Shown here piece by piece: positions 14,850-25,338 of a stretch of 30,124 bases of DNA (position 1 is its first letter; the number at the start of each line of letters is the position of its first letter). The notes under the pieces are model-generated. The model was not told the origin of the DNA and did no database searches. It saw only the letters and a program-made list of their open reading frames with translations. The translations under genes were made by a program, and so were the position numbers. The stretch is from a virus: positions 1 to 30,124 of IMG/VR virus record IMGVR_UViG_3300026478_000549. One strand, given 5' to 3'.

Positions 14850-15575
14850 TTATTGTGATTTTTTGACTTGATTTACTATATGCCAGAACTGATCATAGGA
14901 TGAAAGACACAATCCATACTCAGTATGAAGGTAGAAAAAACAAAAATATTTATCTCCACCAGTTACTTCTTCAGCGATATGTGGTTCCATAGTTCTAAAA
15001 CACAAAGCACTTCCAGCAGCAGGTCTAAACCTTACTTTCTGGTCAGGGAAGTTAATATTTCCACCTTCATAGTCATCACTAAGATATATCAAGATAGTCC
15101 AATCCATAGTATGTGAGGGGTTTGTAGGGTCAATATCAAGATGCTTACCAACATGTCCACCTTGGCGGTATGTATAAATAGAGTAATTGCGAGTAATGAA
15201 ATCTGGCACAGAATTATTTGTCTTCTCAGCCCATACATCTATAACCTTGAGCAATGGTTCTTCAATCATTTTTACTATCTTAAAAGCCTCTGTATGGGAA
15301 GGGGAGTGATCAGGAGTTATCTTCTTATCAAACCATTCTTCTGCACTATTGGCAATCCAACCATCCCAATCAACTGTCTTTATATATCCACGATGTACTT
15401 GTCCATAACCTCTAATGTCATCATATGAATGGTCAACCCACTTATCCCAAGGATAGATAACTGGAGAAATAACAGGATCTCCATCAGTAGAGTTTAAAGC
15501 ATCAACTATCTCTTTAGGGTTTGGGATAGCATTCTCGATATAAATAATATTATCTGTAAGATTGTTAATGATCAT
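14850..15575 (-). CDS. 2OG-Fe(II) oxygenase (241 aa)
   Basis: H145-x-D147 in GKHLDIDP, the SDDYEGGNINFP turn, distal H199 in EPHIAEE, and K209 (GGDKYF) at the position usually filled by the 2OG-binding Arg. The N-terminal 100 residues (YIENAIPNPKEIVDALNS) match the usual helical lead-in of P4H-like enzymes. Substrate unknown. Leaderless: TATAAT, 6 nt, ATG on the minus strand. Transcribed away from the GIY-YIG-like gene's promoter but on the same strand. Confidence 0.88.
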   Translation of the reverse strand: MIINNLTDNIIYIENAIPNPKEIVDALNSTDGDPVISPVIYPWDKWVDHSYDDIRGYGQVHRGYIKTVDWDGWIANSAEEWFDKKITPDHSPSHTEAFKIVKMIEEPLLKVIDVWAEKTNNSVPDFITRNYSIYTYRQGGHVGKHLDIDPTNPSHTMDWTILIYLSDDYEGGNINFPDQKVRFRPAAGSALCFRTMEPHIAEEVTGGDKYFCFFYLHTEYGLCLSSYDQFWHIVNQVKKSQ

Positions 15576-18410: not shown

Positions 18411-19172
18411 ATGTCTAAAAATCCATTTGATCCGTCGCTAAGCGTAGAAGAATTAGCAGCAATTTGGGAGCCCCGCAAAGAATACATTGAAAAAGATCTT
18501 TGGGTCATCCGTAACTTTTTAACCGACGAAGAACTAAGATGGCTTAACGAAGAAGCCAACGATCCAAAAGACTGGTATACCACCATGCGTTCCCCATATG
18601 GAGGAAATACTAAGAATAAGTTTTTAGGCTATATTGCAGATTATGATGAATTTGGTAATATGCTAGTACCAGGACCAAACTCTAAATATAGACCACTACA
18701 TGTCAAACCTATCGAAAAGCGAATAGAATCAGTAGTTCCTAAGCACTTTGGTGGTGCGGGTGCACTTCAGTCATTCTTTGAGGTTCCTGATGAGCAAATT
18801 ATTGCAGAGTTAGGACATGACGTAGATTACGCCATGGGATGGCATTATGAACGAGATGATGCTGACGATGATATTCAACAAAGAACTATTGTAGAAAACT
18901 CTAAAACTCAAGGTAAAAGAATCGTGAGTGAAGCAAAAATATCAGCCTCATTCAATGTATATATTAATGATAACTTTGAAGGTGGCATCTTACAATTTAA
19001 AAATAAAGATTACGAAATCAAACCAGAACCAGGTATGCTTGTAAATATTCCTCTGTACAGAGAGTTTGAACACAGAGTGACAAAGGTAACTGGTGGCAAT
19101 AGACATACCATCTATGGAAGATGTTGGGATAACATTGACAATAAGTATATATCTACTAACGAAGATTGTTAA
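18411..19172 (+). CDS. 2OG-Fe(II) oxygenase with HxE metal motif (253 aa)
   Basis: GWHYERDDADDD gives H145-x-E147 (Glu instead of the usual Asp), NDNFEGGILQF is the turn, H221 in FEHRVTK is the distal His, and R231 in GGNRHTIYG the 2OG anchor. The N-terminal LWVIRNFLTDEELRWLNEE is the common lead-in helix. An acidic Asp run follows the metal motif. Substrate unknown. Leaderless start; coupled to the next gene by TAATG. Confidence 0.88.
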   Translation: MSKNPFDPSLSVEELAAIWEPRKEYIEKDLWVIRNFLTDEELRWLNEEANDPKDWYTTMRSPYGGNTKNKFLGYIADYDEFGNMLVPGPNSKYRPLHVKPIEKRIESVVPKHFGGAGALQSFFEVPDEQIIAELGHDVDYAMGWHYERDDADDDIQQRTIVENSKTQGKRIVSEAKISASFNVYINDNFEGGILQFKNKDYEIKPEPGMLVNIPLYREFEHRVTKVTGGNRHTIYGRCWDNIDNKYISTNEDC

Positions 19173-19954: not shown

Positions 19955-20051
19955 TAGAATAGTAATCTGTTCTATCTGTAAACGTGAAATCGAGGTAAGA
20001 TCTGGTTTTGCACACGAAACATTAACTAGGCACATGAAAGAGCATAAATGA
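19944..20051 (+). CDS. C2H2-type zinc-finger micro-protein (35 aa)
   Basis: VICSICKREIEVRSGFAHET followed by LTRHMKEHK: CxxC, a hydrophobic core and HxxxH, that is a near-canonical C2H2 finger standing alone. ATGA overlap with the next gene. DNA or protein binding is likely. Confidence 0.68.
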   Translation: MASNRIVICSICKREIEVRSGFAHETLTRHMKEHK

Positions 20052-20212
20052 AAGAATACAAGTTTCCAGACCCAGACTATGAAGGATGGGAAATTACTGT
20101 ACCAAGAGATGTTGTTAAAGACATCATTATTTCTTATTTGCAAAAAACATATTATTGGACTGTTGCTGTAGGCTGCTTCCTAATTGGACTTTTGGTTGGT
20201 ATTAGAATATGA
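20048..20212 (+). CDS. Tail-anchored membrane protein (54 aa)
   Basis: Soluble acidic N-terminus (EYKFPDPDYEGWEITVPRDV), then a C-terminal membrane helix (YYWTVAVGCFLIGLLVGI). Overlaps both neighbours by 4 nt. Confidence 0.66.
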   Translation: MKEYKFPDPDYEGWEITVPRDVVKDIIISYLQKTYYWTVAVGCFLIGLLVGIRI

Positions 20213-20367
20213 ATAGAAAACAAGTAGAGTTTGAAGAAATAGAAGAGCAGGTAGTTGTAACCCTAAGAACTAAGTGTCCTGAAAAATATCTTCTTATTGA
20301 TAGAGAAAATGGCAATGTATTTATTGCTAAGGAAACAGGTGAATGGGAGTTAATTCGTGGTAGATAA
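20209..20367 (+). CDS. Hypothetical 52-aa protein
   Basis: Begins MNRKQVEFEEIEEQVVVTLR and has YLLIDRENGNVFIAKETGEW, a beta-hairpin-like repeat. Overlaps the GTG of the next gene by 11 nt. Confidence 0.66.
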   Translation: MNRKQVEFEEIEEQVVVTLRTKCPEKYLLIDRENGNVFIAKETGEWELIRGR

Positions 20368-20620
20368 AATTGTTAACCTTATTTTTAAATGGAAAACACT
20401 TCGACTTGCTATATTTGATGAGGTCAATCTCTATAATTCACTTACACGGATTATGAATGACCCAGAGTCAATGCAAACAGCATCTGCTTTTTGGGATGAT
20501 GGAGATGGGTGGCGTGGATGGACTATAAAAGATGACAATACATATTATTTTCATGACTTGCCAGAAAAGTCTTTAAGTGATATTATGTATATTATTATGG
20601 AAAAAGAGGAGTTAACCTAA
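20357..20620 (+). CDS. Hypothetical 87-aa protein, GTG start
   Basis: GTG at 20357 with GGGAG upstream. Aromatic and acidic (SAFWDDGDGWRGWTIKDDNT). The stop overlaps the next ATG (TAATG). Confidence 0.68.
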   Translation: MVDKIVNLIFKWKTLRLAIFDEVNLYNSLTRIMNDPESMQTASAFWDDGDGWRGWTIKDDNTYYFHDLPEKSLSDIMYIIMEKEELT

Positions 20621-20802
20621 TGAATTGTGGATGTGGATTTTCAACTGAATACCCTACTTGCAACGGTACACACAAAGTAGTAAAGACAGTAAAAGATAAG
20701 ATAATTGCTGATGTTGAGGCAATTTCGTTAGAATCTGAATTAAGCAATGAAGAGTTTAGAGCCTTAATGATTGGTATTATTCGTAAAAGCAAAGGCATTT
20801 AA
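20620..20802 (+). CDS. Mini CDGSH-type iron-sulfur protein (60 aa)
   Basis: Residues 3-18, CGCGFSTEYPTCNGTH, match the CDGSH signature C-x-C-x2-(S/T)-x3-P-x-C-D-G-(S/T/A)-H with one change, Asp to Asn at residue 15. In mitoNEET-type proteins three Cys and one His hold a redox-active [2Fe-2S] cluster; here these are C3, C5, C14 and H18. The rest is a helical domain (DVEAISLESELSNEEFRALM). The N-terminal domain is the minimum size for the fold and may need to dimerise. Coupled to both neighbours. Confidence 0.75.
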   Translation: MNCGCGFSTEYPTCNGTHKVVKTVKDKIIADVEAISLESELSNEEFRALMIGIIRKSKGI

Positions 20803-21581
20803 TGAGCGAAAACATAATTAAATTTCATTCTTATCATCCATCTAATAACACTACAGATGACTATAAGCCAGCGCCAGTAAAAAAGCATATGCCACAATGG
20901 TTTTTAGATAAGGAAAAGTTTAAGAGAAACGAAGATGGAACATTTTACCTGACAATGTTTACCGATCCAGACGGCAAGCAGTCTGTTCATAGACAACCTT
21001 CTTGGAAAGCATGTCCAGCAATGCTTGATGTGTTTATGGCAGGATATTATTTGTTTACTCCATGTGATATTACATTTAAAAAGAATGATAGCCTTCCATA
21101 CCCAGAGGTCGAGTATGATGAAAAATGGGGCAATGTTGCTCCGTCAAAATCATTTTGTGCTATGCGTGGCGCAGAAGATGGACTTCCAACACCTGAAGGT
21201 TACAATGAATATACTTTTGTATGGCGAATAAATTGGTATTTTGAGGTACCAAAAGGTTATACTCTTTTAATGACCCATCCAATTAATATACCAAACCTTC
21301 CATTCCAAACTATTTCAGGATTTGCAGATGCATCAAATCCTTATATGATATCTGGTAACTATCCTTTTTATATTAAGAAAGACTGGTATGGAACAATTCC
21401 AGCAGGAACACCGTATGCACAACTTATTCCAATGAAGGCCGAATCTTGGTCATCTGAAATACATCATTATTCTGTTGAAGAAACAACACGTATGCTAGAA
21501 GAAAAACAAAGAAACTATGTTGTTGGTCACGGAATAACAAAATATAAAGAACTCGATTGGATCAGAAAAGAGTATGAGTAA
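20802..21581 (+). CDS. Conserved virus-type protein (259 aa), possibly DUF6065-like
   Basis: The order PQWFLDK, WKACPAMLDVFMAGYYLFTP, FVWRINWYFEVPKGYTLLMT, then HPINIPNLPFQTISGFAD and GTIPAGTPYAQLIP is typical of a phage family (often in cyanophages) predicted to have a beta-barrel core. Function not established; relation to DUF6065 is my guess. No catalytic motif seen. Coupled to the CDGSH gene (TAATG) and overlapping the next gene by 8 nt. Confidence 0.8.
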   Translation: MSENIIKFHSYHPSNNTTDDYKPAPVKKHMPQWFLDKEKFKRNEDGTFYLTMFTDPDGKQSVHRQPSWKACPAMLDVFMAGYYLFTPCDITFKKNDSLPYPEVEYDEKWGNVAPSKSFCAMRGAEDGLPTPEGYNEYTFVWRINWYFEVPKGYTLLMTHPINIPNLPFQTISGFADASNPYMISGNYPFYIKKDWYGTIPAGTPYAQLIPMKAESWSSEIHHYSVEETTRMLEEKQRNYVVGHGITKYKELDWIRKEYE

Positions 21582-21945
21582 TACATGGGTATGTCCCTGC
21601 AATGGCTGTAAAAAGGCTCAGAAGGTCATTATAGACCAGATCATTGAGGAGTATAGGACTTGCCCTAATGTTGAAGAGATAGATGGCAAACTATACTGTA
21701 CTGTATGGTATAAGCATGATGACTGTGAACGTCTTAGAGAATTATTATATAAGATTACGGGGAAAGATCTATATACCCTGCCAGAAATGCGTTTTGAGGT
21801 AAGTAATGCGTTGGAAGAAATATTAAAAGATCGTGATACCCACGAACTATTAAGAAGGCTTGGCTCAGATTATGATAAAGATGGTGTACCATATTGGCAT
21901 AGATATGAGGAGCGTTTAAAATATATGGAGGATAACGGCATATGA
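21574..21945 (+). CDS. Hypothetical 123-aa protein with CxCxxC start
   Basis: N-terminal TWVCPCNGCKKAQKVIIDQI carries CxCxxC, a metal or redox site; C31 and C42 (RTCPNV, LYCTVW) may add to it. The rest is helical and acidic. It lies between the conserved virus-type gene and the 2OG oxygenase with ATGA overlap. Confidence 0.76.
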   Translation: MSNTWVCPCNGCKKAQKVIIDQIIEEYRTCPNVEEIDGKLYCTVWYKHDDCERLRELLYKITGKDLYTLPEMRFEVSNALEEILKDRDTHELLRRLGSDYDKDGVPYWHRYEERLKYMEDNGI

Positions 21946-22559
21946 CTGTTTTAAAAATAGATAATGTATTTTCAGATACTGAATTAAATCTTATTAATTC
22001 TTTGTTAAGAAGAGAAGATATTACAAGGAATGAAGATGGTACTTTTATACAGCATGATGGCGATGAATATGGTTATGGAATCCATTCTGGACTTGGTAGA
22101 CTTCAGTATAGAATTGAAGATAATCAAAAGTTTAGCGAACTTCGACAAAATTTAGCCAAAAAAATTAATGCATTATTTGGAGTAAACCTCTCATCTTCTG
22201 GTGCATATTGTGCAGAATATAGTGCTGAATTTGGTACACCCAACTTACCAGTGCACTGGGATCATGATAATACTGAGATTATTTTTAATTATCAATTATC
22301 TTCAACAACTTCATGGGACATTGGAGTAGATAAAGATGTTTATTCAATGGAAGATAATACGGCATTAGTTTTTAATCCTAACAAGTATACACATTGGAGA
22401 CCTCATAAGACTTTTAAAGAAGGCGAATATGTAAAGATGATCTTCTTTAGATTTACAGATTTTAATAATCCATCTGATTATGCACATTTAGACTATAGTA
22501 TTGGTCATGATGTTTTTGCAGAAATTAATGCATTTAGGGATAGCCTAAAACAAACTTGA
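21942..22559 (+). CDS. 2OG-Fe(II) oxygenase-like protein (205 aa)
   Basis: PVHWDHDNTEI supplies H105-x-D107, the strand block NYQLSSTTSWDIGV follows, YTHWRPHKTF supplies the distal His (H151 or H155), and K165 in EYVKMIFF replaces the 2OG-binding Arg. This variant resembles cyanophage oxygenase-like proteins. Substrate unknown. Its TGA stop lies inside the TTGACA of the tRNA promoter. Confidence 0.8.
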   Translation: MTVLKIDNVFSDTELNLINSLLRREDITRNEDGTFIQHDGDEYGYGIHSGLGRLQYRIEDNQKFSELRQNLAKKINALFGVNLSSSGAYCAEYSAEFGTPNLPVHWDHDNTEIIFNYQLSSTTSWDIGVDKDVYSMEDNTALVFNPNKYTHWRPHKTFKEGEYVKMIFFRFTDFNNPSDYAHLDYSIGHDVFAEINAFRDSLKQT

Positions 22560-22598: not shown

Positions 22599-22672
22599 GG
22601 AGCAGTAGCCAAGTTGGTCAAGGCCCCGAACTCATAATTCGGCTATCGTAGGTTCAAGTCCTACCTGCTCTA
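22599..22672 (+). tRNA. tRNA-Met(CAT)
   Basis: Cloverleaf with acceptor GGAGCAG/CTGCTCT, D arm GCC/GGC, anticodon stem CCGAA/TTCGG with loop CTCATAA (anticodon 22633-22635), T arm GTAGG/CCTAC. Could instead be Ile2 if the C is lysidinylated. No encoded CCA. Confidence 0.88.
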
Positions 22673-22676
22673 CCTA

Positions 22677-22749
22677 GCCCTTATAGCCCAGTGGTAGAGG
22701 CACACGACTTAAAATCGTGACAGCATTGGTTCGAATCCAATTAGGGGTA
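22677..22749 (+). tRNA. tRNA-Leu(TAA), class I body
   Basis: Acceptor GCCCTTA/TAGGGGT, anticodon stem CACGA/TCGTG, loop CTTAAAA (anticodon TAA at 22710-22712), T arm ATTGG/CCAAT. The variable loop is only 5 nt (ACAGC), whereas tRNA-Leu normally has a long variable arm. Confidence 0.85.
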
Positions 22750-22750
22750 C

Positions 22751-22823
22751 ACCTCTGTAGTTCAGTGGACAGAACGATGGACTTCTAAGCCATGCGTCGC
22801 AGGTTCGATTCCTGCCAGGGGTG
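22751..22823 (+). tRNA. tRNA-Arg(TCT)
   Basis: Acceptor ACCTCTG/CAGGGGT, anticodon stem ATGGA/GCCAT (last pair mismatched), loop CTTCTAA (anticodon 22784-22786), T arm GCAGG/CCTGC. Confidence 0.87.
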
Positions 22824-22844
22824 CTACAATAGTAGTAATAGTAG

Positions 22845-22917
22845 TGGACTGTAGTTCAGTTGGTAGAACACTCGACTGTTAATCGAGATGTCGCAGGATC
22901 GAGACCTGCCAGTCCAG
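22845..22917 (+). tRNA. tRNA-Asn(GTT)
   Basis: Acceptor TGGACTG/CAGTCCA with an unusual T1:A72 pair, anticodon stem CTCGA/TCGAG, loop CTGTTAA (GTT at 22878-22880). The T loop reads ATCGAGA, with A at the normally invariant T54. Confidence 0.86.
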
Positions 22918-22918
22918 C

Positions 22919-22968
22919 GATGTAGGCACGGTAGTAGGTGGAATGGAATGGGCTATCGTGTCTACATC
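22919..22968 (+). other. 12-bp hairpin between tRNA genes
   Basis: GATGTAGGCACG and CGTGTCTACATC pair over 12 positions with one wobble; the 26-nt loop is purine-rich. It fills the gap between tRNA-Asn and tRNA-Asp. It may be a processing structure or tRNA relic. Confidence 0.5.
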
Positions 22969-22972
22969 CTTT

Positions 22973-23046
22973 GGTCCGTTAGTTCAGTTGGTTAGAACGC
23001 TACCCTGTCACGGTAGAGGTCGACGGTTCAAGTCCGTTACGGATCG
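22973..23046 (+). tRNA. tRNA-Asp(GTC)
   Basis: Acceptor GGTCCGT/ACGGATC, anticodon stem CTACC/GGTAG, loop CTGTCAC (GTC at 23007-23009), T arm GACGG/CCGTT-type, discriminator G. Confidence 0.88.
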
Positions 23047-23051
23047 CCAAG

Positions 23052-23123
23052 GGCTCCATCGTCTATCGGTTAGGACTTCAGATTTTCAATCTGGCAAGAC
23101 GGGTTCGATTCCCGTTGGGGCTA
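23052..23123 (+). tRNA. tRNA-Glu(TTC)
   Basis: Acceptor GGCTCCA/TGGGGCT, anticodon stem TCAGA/TCTGG, loop TTTTCAA (TTC at 23085-23087), T arm CGGG/CCCG, typical tRNA-Glu GTCTATCGGTTAGGAC D-arm. Confidence 0.87.
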
Positions 23124-23129
23124 CTAGTT

Positions 23130-23138
23130 TGCTATAAT
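23130..23138 (+). promoter_or_regulatory. Extended -10 promoter of ahpC
   Basis: TTGC-TATAAT (hexamer 23133-23138) just after tRNA-Glu; no clear -35. Leader contains AGAAAGAGATATCG before ATG 23168. Confidence 0.6.
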
Positions 23139-23167: not shown

Positions 23168-23737
23168 ATGAGAACTATCGGAGATAAGTTAGAGCCATTT
23201 CGCATCATTGGAGTAAAGCCAGGAAGATTGGATGCTGCCGATGATGTTTTTGAAGTGTTAGATGAAAAGTCATTTCCAGGAAAATGGAAGGTAATTGTTT
23301 ATTATCCAAAGGACTTTACATTTGTATGTCCAACAGAAATTGTTGCATATGATAAGTTAGTTAATGATTTCAATGATCGTGATGCTGTATTACTTACAGG
23401 ATCTACAGATAATGAATTCTGTAAGATTGCATGGCGTAATGCTCACGAAGATCTTAAGAAGACAAACTCTTGGTCATTTGCAGATCAGATTCGTGAATGG
23501 TCATGGTCTAATGATGAAGGTTTCACAGGTCTTGCTAATCAATTAGGAATCATCAACAAAGATGGTGTTGCCCTTCGTGCAACTTTTATTGTAGACCCTG
23601 ACAACGTAATTCAGCATGTAACAGTTAACAACCTTAACGTTGGAAGAAGCCCAGAGGAAACATTGCGTATTCTTGATGCTTTGCAAACAGGTGAACTTTG
23701 TGCATGCAATAGAAGTCTTGGTGGAGAAACACTGTGA
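23168..23737 (+). CDS. ahpC: AhpC-type 2-Cys peroxiredoxin
   Basis: 189 aa. The active site YPKDFTFVCPTEI carries P47, T51 and peroxidatic C54; R137 (ALRATFIVD) completes the catalytic set. The C-terminal GELCACNRSLGG holds resolving Cys candidates C178 and C180, as in actinobacterial AhpC (typical 195 aa). It reduces H2O2, organic peroxides and peroxynitrite in the cytoplasm. Reduction normally comes from AhpD, which is encoded two genes downstream. Overlaps the next gene by GTGA. Codon use is as AT-rich as its neighbours, so it is not a very recent host import. Confidence 0.93.
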   Translation: MRTIGDKLEPFRIIGVKPGRLDAADDVFEVLDEKSFPGKWKVIVYYPKDFTFVCPTEIVAYDKLVNDFNDRDAVLLTGSTDNEFCKIAWRNAHEDLKKTNSWSFADQIREWSWSNDEGFTGLANQLGIINKDGVALRATFIVDPDNVIQHVTVNNLNVGRSPEETLRILDALQTGELCACNRSLGGETL

Positions 23738-23853: not shown

Positions 23854-23910
23854 TGTGAATGCACTCTGAGATATGAGTGGAATGGAAAGAAGTGGAAGGC
23901 TTTGATATGA
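23851..23910 (+). other. In-frame continuation after the TAA
   Basis: Codons after the TAA read CECTLRYEWNGKKWKALI and end in a TGA that overlaps the ahpD ATG (ATGA), the usual junction in this genome. No separate start codon or ribosome site serves this segment. Confidence 0.65.
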
Positions 23911-24419
23911 GTTGGGTAGATGAAATTAAGGAACTTGTTCCTGAATATGCTAAAGATATTAAGTTAAATCTTGATGCTGTAATTAATAGAAGTTCTGTAG
24001 ATTATGATTATGCTTCATCTCTCGCACTTGCAGCAGCATTAGCAACAGGAAATCAAGATATTGTTGCTATGATTTCTGCTGGAGTAACAAATGAAGTAGA
24101 AAAAAATGCAGCATTTACAGCAGCAGCATTAATGGCTCAAAACAATGTTTGGTATCCATATACTGAAATGGCTGATGATCCAAACCTTAAGGGATTACCT
24201 GCACAACTTAGAATGAATGCCATTACTTCTCATGGTGGAACTACAAAAGCCAAGTTTGAATCATATGCATTAATTGCATCAATTATTGGTAAGTGTCATT
24301 TTTGTGTGAAGGCTCACTATGAAACCTTAAAACAAGAAGGATATACAACAGAACAACTTCGTGATATTGGACGAATTGCTGCAACTATTAATGCTATTGC
24401 AAAAGTTGTAGTAGCATAA
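23907..24419 (+). CDS. ahpD: AhpD-family alkylhydroperoxidase
   Basis: 170 aa from the ATG at 23907 (ATGA junction); an upstream ATG at 23877 lies in the interrupted gene. The active site is E118 in FESYALIASIIG, then KCHFCVKAH with C130, C133 and H137, the same numbering as M. tuberculosis AhpD (E118, C130, C133, H137). The His between the Cys is shifted by one (C-H-F-C). AhpD is a C-x-x-C thiol protein with weak peroxidase activity of its own that reduces AhpC. Length is close to the family norm (about 175). Followed 6 nt later by tRNA-Thr. Confidence 0.9.
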   Translation: MSWVDEIKELVPEYAKDIKLNLDAVINRSSVDYDYASSLALAAALATGNQDIVAMISAGVTNEVEKNAAFTAAALMAQNNVWYPYTEMADDPNLKGLPAQLRMNAITSHGGTTKAKFESYALIASIIGKCHFCVKAHYETLKQEGYTTEQLRDIGRIAATINAIAKVVVA

Positions 24420-24425
24420 TGGATT

Positions 24426-24497
24426 GCCTCCTTAACTCAGGGGTAGAGTACCCGCCTTGTAAGCGGGTTGTCGTAGGTTCAAATCCTACAGGGGGCT
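24426..24497 (+). tRNA. tRNA-Thr(TGT)
   Basis: Acceptor GCCTCCT/AGGGGGC, anticodon stem CCCGC/GCGGG, loop CTTGTAA (TGT at 24458-24460), T arm GTAGG/CCTAC. Separated from the main tRNA cluster by the ahpC-ahpD genes. Confidence 0.88.
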
Positions 24498-24500
24498 CAA

Positions 24501-24753: not shown

Positions 24754-25338
24754 TTAGAAGTCTACCTTTTCTAATAATGACTCATCTACGTCACATGCTA
24801 TATTAATTACAATAGAATATCTAAAGTTAGTTTTGTCTGGATTTTCCCAATTGTGATAGATATCTCCATCAAAAAATAATGCATACCCTGCCTTTGGAGT
24901 AAAAGACTTATATAGTTCTAGGCTGTCTCCGTCCACGTACTCGCCATTCCATCTTTTCTTAAATAGGTTAATGTTTCCATCCGAATCATTTGCATAATAA
25001 ACAAAGGTGTAATTGTGCTGCCTTCTTCTTAAATCTACATGTGGATCCATGCCTCTTTTATCGTTTACTCTAAATGTAATATGTGCTCTTGTTCTTAGAT
25101 ATTCATAAACCTTAACATTATATTTTGCAGCAAAACGATCCATAATAAAACTAACAAGTTCTTGATTTAGTGGAGTATGTGCTAAAATTCCACAGTCAGA
25201 ATAATCACCAATGAGGCCAACTACACCGTCTTTAGCAGCATGAACCGAATGATCTAGATAGTACGGCAACTGCACTAATGAACGATAAACATGATCTCTT
25301 TCTTCTTCAGTTAAAAAATCATTTGTCCAAATATACAT
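24754..25338 (-). CDS. 2OG-Fe(II) oxygenase (194 aa)
   Basis: H100-x-D102 in MDPHVDLRRR, distal H162 in GDIYHNWENP and R173 in NFRYSIVINI give the full Fe/2OG site; the core strands ITFRVNDK and YALFFDG match the double-stranded beta helix. The N-terminus MYIWTNDFLTEEERDHVY is the typical lead-in. Substrate unknown. Its start overlaps the upstream stop (TAATG), and it is followed immediately by the bS22-like gene. Confidence 0.88.
   Translation of the reverse strand: MYIWTNDFLTEEERDHVYRSLVQLPYYLDHSVHAAKDGVVGLIGDYSDCGILAHTPLNQELVSFIMDRFAAKYNVKVYEYLRTRAHITFRVNDKRGMDPHVDLRRRQHNYTFVYYANDSDGNINLFKKRWNGEYVDGDSLELYKSFTPKAGYALFFDGDIYHNWENPDKTNFRYSIVINIACDVDESLLEKVDF

Follow-up and report, generated by a model that had tools for sequence, protein, structure and literature searches.

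A virus-specific family of CDGSH-type loop mini-proteins and its possible link to phage 2OG oxygenases

The gene, its loop and its operon

The window, which is the whole stretch of DNA analysed, is a 30,124-base IMG/VR virus record. The open reading frame at 20620-20802 (+) translates into MNCGCGFSTEYPTCNGTHKVVKTVKDKIIADVEAISLESELSNEEFRALMIGIIRKSKGI, and its ATG shares the final base of the preceding stop codon (TAATG). The N-terminus carries the motif C3-x-C5-x2-S8-x3-P12-x-C14-N15-G16-T17-H18. Compared with the CDGSH consensus, C-x-C-x2-(S/T)-x3-P-x-C-D-G-(S/A/T)-H (PMC5859297), residues 3-18 show a single mismatch, Asn for Asp, by which the strict consensus is missed. The 3Cys-1His ligands are present at CxCx8Cx3H spacing and are invariant in 42 family members. 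Searched as a degenerate DNA pattern, the motif is present a single time in the window, while shuffles give an expected count of 0.00. An earlier sequence-only reading had described this frame as matching the CDGSH motif at all spacings but with Asp replaced by Asn, and the reading frame, the consensus comparison and the shuffles confirm that description.

The profile search proposed in that reading gave a weak match. Pfam zf-CDGSH (PF09360) is the top match of the 60-residue protein, with E=0.0032 over profile positions 32-48 of 48, and its 18.2 bits fall under the curated gathering score of 29.5 bits. Relatives are referred to here as N-type (CNGTH mini-CDGSH) or D-type (Asp-bearing CDGTH/CDGSH mini-CDGSH), and L-numbers denote loci fetched from viral contigs that matched the motif scans. 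D-type relatives score 23-34 bits against the same profile. Searches of PHROGs and NCBIfam profiles returned no match, and neither SEC-C nor another zinc family appears among the Pfam matches of the frame at E up to 10. The significance of the CDGSH assignment, as judged from sequence comparison, comes from the family and not from the single sequence.

Table 1. Features of the mini-CDGSH gene and its neighbours in the window
Feature	Position	Strand	Evidence
87-aa conserved upstream neighbour	20357..20620	+	Two genes or fewer from N-type in 17/21 loci
AGGAG, ribosome-binding-site-like	20607..20611	+	Sequence; 8 nt upstream of ATG
Mini-CDGSH protein, CNGTH variant	20620..20802	+	ORF, 60 aa; 42-member conserved family; pN/pS; sub-cut-off Pfam match
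3Cys-1His CDGSH-type loop CGCGFSTEYPTCNGTH, residues 3-18	20626..20673	+	Pattern match; invariant ligand/loop residues
Helical tail (predicted), residues 19-60	20674..20799	+	AlphaFold2 prediction
phrog_7084 protein	20802..21581	+	phrog_7084 E=3.9e-28; abuts mini-CDGSH gene
Cys-rich protein, CPCNGC N-terminus	21574..21945	+	Neighbour statistics; fusions in relatives
2OG-Fe(II) oxygenase-fold protein, HxD...HxR	21942..22559	+	Invariant residues; Foldseek of relative; phrog_2954 E=2.6e-8

Seven consecutive genes (20048-22559) overlap or abut, which bears out the earlier proposal of an operon that includes the CxCxxC protein at 21574-21945 and the 2OG oxygenase at 21942-22559. Two of these neighbours recur with the mini-CDGSH gene in other phages, in tests where some loci come from related phages and are not fully independent. 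Loci holding the family of the 87-aa protein place it within two genes of an N-type gene in 17 of 21 cases (null mean 3.1, p<=0.0005), and those holding the Cys-rich 21574 family do so in 14 of 16 (null mean 2.5, p<=0.0005). The phrog_7084 protein is also found in D-type CDGSH/2OG clusters (L141, L179, L086).

The 21942 protein has no Pfam match and a generic oxygenase HMM also missed its family, so invariant residues and structure were used instead. H105, D107, H151 and R153 are invariant in 11 aligned rows, and in Foldseek the modelled relative from L014 resembles structures of PHD2 and ALKBH (E 2.4e-7). The earlier assignment as a 2OG oxygenase thus holds despite the silence of Pfam: the modelled double-stranded beta-helix fold, the HxD...H triad and the distal Arg are those of a 2OG-Fe(II) oxygenase. 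A separate Ca-binding-loop-like element, DxDxDG-x-PYW, is present in the 21574-21945 protein (residues 99-108) and in L004:5632-5973, L006:5655-5999 and L016:10318-10512; it lies within the C-terminal part of several small neighbours that otherwise differ, one CNGTH protein included.

The viral family and its Asn variant

The pattern CxCG..P.CNG.H, scanned against viral contigs, matched 67 stretches, nearly all belonging to one protein kind; L007, from the pattern scan, was rejected as a spurious reading frame. About 43 N-type proteins are distinct. They are 44-65 aa long and all carry CNGTH, with the motif starting at residue 3-4; behind it comes a helical tail, in many cases rich in Lys. Alignment of 42 members shows M1, C3, C5, G6, S8, P12, C14, N15, G16, T17 and H18 to be invariant, S8 and T17 being the informative positions, as the scan pattern itself imposed C3, C5, P12, C14, N15, G16 and H18. 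The family is under purifying selection by the estimate of pN/pS, which over 82 pairs comes to 0.12 for the motif and 0.22 for the tail.

Among bacteria and archaea (genomes of 84,980 species), the one pattern scanned, [EDA]YPxCNGTH, identified no true relative; its single hit, in Vibrio, is a 10-residue coincidence lacking CxC and was rejected. Similarly, tblastn against annotated isolate phages revealed no true relative. A match in AR9 was rejected for covering residues 9-51 only and lacking CxC, and a weak match in Psp6 for lying on the strand opposite to the annotated gene. Across these scans, the N-type mini-CDGSH is a virus-specific family. The sequence-only reading had regarded a 60-residue phage version as unusual, which is not upheld, since dozens occur in viral contigs, yet annotated isolate phages gave no real match. 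The open-access literature yielded no description of phage CDGSH mini-proteins or of CDGSH-2OG fusions.

Asn at position 15 recurs in dozens of family members, and a DNA pattern with Asp in its place gave at least 120 matches in viral contigs; Asn and Asp were scanned separately, and the match counts give no relative frequency of the two. Asp sisters of the N-type family among the matches listed are L173, L091, L105 and L095. The two residues interchange within the phage family, where a tree with starred branches forces at least two D/N changes, its columns being too few to date them and its D rows hand-picked for alignable tails. In mitoNEET, the D84N variant retains [2Fe-2S] absorption, which mutants of the Cys/His ligands lose (PMC11138216, review), so the replacement of Asp by Asn is no argument against cluster binding. 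The Asp-to-Asn change noted earlier is present, and the 42-member alignment, the D/N tree and mitoNEET D84N correct its reading to a family-wide, recurrent and probably tolerated variant, not a defect.

Fold prediction and the nature of the metal site

Work on CISD crystal structures concluded that the CDGSH module requires a beta-sandwich and a paired module (PMC3174974); according to that work it needs an N-strand, the GP-Phi-x-Phi sequence called the P motif, and hydrophobic residues at Phi1 and Phi12 of the dimer interface. Of 44 N-type members, 0 have the P motif and only 4 have hydrophobic residues at both Phi1 and Phi12. Among the full-length viral CISDs that these scans also found, 12 of 13 combine the P motif with hydrophobic residues at both Phi positions, in a control that was chosen by P motif and in which the Phi comparison alone is independent. 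AlphaFold2, with the family alignment (A3), predicted a helical hairpin (residues 17-33 and 43-58) with a mean pLDDT of 75, values of 52-60 in the motif region, and no beta strand. Foldseek with this low-confidence model found no PDB fold match. By these fold tests the 60-residue protein carries the CDGSH loop and lies outside the CISD fold family; alignment and model describe it as CDGSH-derived, a stripped loop with a helical tail. Its earlier description as a mitoNEET-type CDGSH protein is retained for the ligand loop and abandoned for the fold.

Likeness to CISD/NEET proteins (PF09360; mitoNEET; type 4 bacterial members such as RsCISD; type 6 MmCISD, 3tbn) resides in the CxCx8Cx3H spacing, in the S/T, P, G and S/T/A positions and, in most members, in a Lys after the His, with 3tbn being the top PDB sequence match (E 0.0014). 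Unlike CISD/NEET proteins, the N-type has Asn for Asp, a loop at the extreme N-terminus, a helical tail and mostly non-hydrophobic Phi1/Phi12, lacks the N-strand and P motif, and remains under the Pfam cut-off. Stand-alone D-type mini-CDGSH genes (L074, L093) resemble the N-type in their N-terminal loop, length of 30-60 aa and oxygenase-rich phages, whereas they carry CDGTH/CDGSH, a hydrophobic Phi12 (often Tyr) and shorter charged tails.

The loss of the CISD fold and interface makes a structural zinc knuckle the main rival to an iron-sulfur site: 3Cys-1His would hold Zn, and the small protein would serve oxygenases or other proteins as an adaptor or docking tag. This agrees with the missing N-strand and P motif, the degenerate Phi1/Phi12, the lack of predicted beta structure, and the presence nearby of the Cys-rich 21574 protein and further small Cys proteins; a tag would also suit fusion at either end of an enzyme. 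It accords poorly with the invariance of the non-ligand residues S8, P12, G16 and T17 (P12 and G16 imposed by the scan pattern), which, added to the invariant ligands, exceed in the alignment what a generic zinc knuckle needs. Furthermore, CDGSH proteins were once annotated as zinc fingers and later recognised as [2Fe-2S] proteins, and excess zinc is not taken into mitoNEET (PMC11138216). The zinc knuckle is considered less likely than the iron-sulfur reading and ranks first among the alternatives.

Oxygenase fusions, gene neighbourhoods and a proposed role

Among the fetched loci, which are an incomplete sample (the Asp scan matched at least 120 times), every motif-bearing protein of 130 aa or longer (13/13) contains a 2OG-oxygenase or JmjC domain. 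Twelve match a 2OG profile built here, and the thirteenth, L011:11850-12614, matches Pfam JmjC_2 above cut-off. The motif, and no oxygenase sequence, guided the scans, so the oxygenase partner was not selected for; the exceptions are L224 and L225, which were chosen on account of a CDGSH match inside a long frame. Five fusion architectures are represented. The loop is N-terminal on three distinct 2OG-FeII_Oxy_3 domains (L141 type, L179, L081) and on JmjC_2 (L011, with a CDETH loop, 1.3 kb upstream of a CNGTH gene), and C-terminal on the 2OG oxygenases of L224:50-784 and L225:11-745 (CDNTH). In L141 and L179 the start codon of the fusion overlaps the preceding stop, which makes the loop the true N-terminus. 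A stand-alone gene of 39 aa encodes the loop in L074, L093 and L177, and it has a 4-bp overlap with the gene for the oxygenase that carries the loop in L141. A CNGTH gene is co-resident in the phages of the JmjC-type and C-terminal-type fusions, the latter also holding other CDGSH mini-genes, with three zf-CDGSH matches per contig. The CDGSH-2OG fusions (L141, L179, L081, L224) and the CDGSH-JmjC fusion share the loop and the kind of phage with the mini-proteins. They differ from the N-type in placing the loop inside an enzyme and in reading CDGTH, CDNTH or CDETH, mostly CDGTH.

The partner families are likewise joined in relatives. L154 fuses an Asp-bearing CDGSH loop to a 21574-type domain (53% identity over 53 residues), and L014:2563-3516 and L027:1205-2182 combine a 21942-type 2OG oxygenase with a C-terminal 21574-type Cys-rich domain in one gene, whose start is overlapped by a CNGTH gene; these two phages are close relatives. 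Other CDGSH fusions place the CDGSH at the C-terminus of a 123-aa phage protein (L078, L088, L106) and inside a 115-aa methyltransferase-like fragment (L184).

A host-takeover peptide, in which the loop would offer a surface for binding to a host protein and its metal redox would play no part, could be envisaged from a small gene within a block of small variable phage genes and from a conserved N-terminal loop with diverse helical tails. Loops that also serve as oxygenase domains do not fit such a peptide, conserved neighbour pairs argue for a shared pathway, and this explanation is regarded as very improbable.

General adjacency to oxygenase genes does not exceed background. N-type genes adjoin 2OG genes in 9 of 42 cases against 5.8 expected, and the 21942-type oxygenase alone is near an N-type gene in 3 of 7 (p 0.13), neither being significant. 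For stand-alone D-type genes the next gene is a 2OG gene in 7 of 15, where the background ranges by locus from 0 to 0.64, so that adjacency does not decide the question there either. Each of the 11/11 long N-type contigs has 1-12 2OG-FeII_Oxy_3 genes, in phages that are oxygenase-rich anyway. The oxygenase link of the sequence-only reading is therefore supported by the fusions in relatives and by the specific 21574/21942 partner families, and not by 2OG adjacency in general. Within its 30 kb, the window holds five 2OG-oxygenase-like genes (280-909, 14850-15575, 18411-19172, 21942-22559 and 24754-25338). A search for T4 gp23 in the 11 long contigs gave no match, and the control likewise gave none.

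Downstream of the operon, six tRNA genes are clustered at 22599-23124 with a seventh at 24426-24498, and the listed frame at 22943-23137, probably an artefact, runs over two of the clustered genes. Antioxidant genes follow, namely an AhpC/TSA-type peroxiredoxin (23168-23737) and a CMD/AhpD-like gene (23877-24419), and relatives carry a KatG-type peroxidase (L004:8575-10659) or a GPx-like protein (L014:6284-7087). These genes, and the ties of CDGSH proteins to iron and ROS balance (PMC11138216), would agree with a small Fe-S/redox protein serving phage oxidative stress or iron balance, as a cluster carrier or a peroxide/NO sensor, independently of oxygenases. The antioxidant genes, however, lie beyond the tRNA cluster and vary among relatives, and the fusion partners are oxygenases, so that such a role is judged improbable.

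The reading favoured here, at a probability of roughly 45%, is that 20620-20802 encodes an accessory module of phage 2OG oxygenases that binds metal, probably as a [2Fe-2S] cluster, through 3Cys-1His. It is preferred because the non-ligand consensus residues are kept and because the loop recurs in and beside oxygenases. Under this reading the 16-residue 3Cys-1His loop with its helical tail would fold around the metal and hold a labile [2Fe-2S] cluster without the beta-sandwich of cellular CISDs, and the module would act on phage 2OG oxygenases through redox or iron supply. It could, for example, be a local electron source returning the oxygenase iron to Fe(II) as a substitute for ascorbate, or alternatively an iron source. 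The lost fold features, the low-confidence loop model, the background-level adjacency and the prevalence of CDGTH rather than CNGTH in the fused loops count against it. More doubtful is the wider proposal that phages have made the CDGSH loop a minimal, fold-less [2Fe-2S] plug-in of about 16 residues, a redox or iron partner for 2OG oxygenases supplied in trans as CNGTH mini-proteins or in cis in the five fusion architectures.

The protein family and its fused relatives suggest that phages use the CDGSH loop as a small helper of oxygen-using enzymes. A loop-only virus family would test the minimum size of an Fe-S site, and the repeated joining of the loop to 2OG oxygenases suggests that CDGSH modules have a function in viruses. 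The fusions also suggest a route by which phages could hold many 2OG oxygenases reduced without ascorbate. Collagen-like proteins with G-x-y repeats adjoin 2OG/CDGSH clusters in L141:5950-7107, L074:621-1919 and L187:8268-9368, and are possible hydroxylation substrates.
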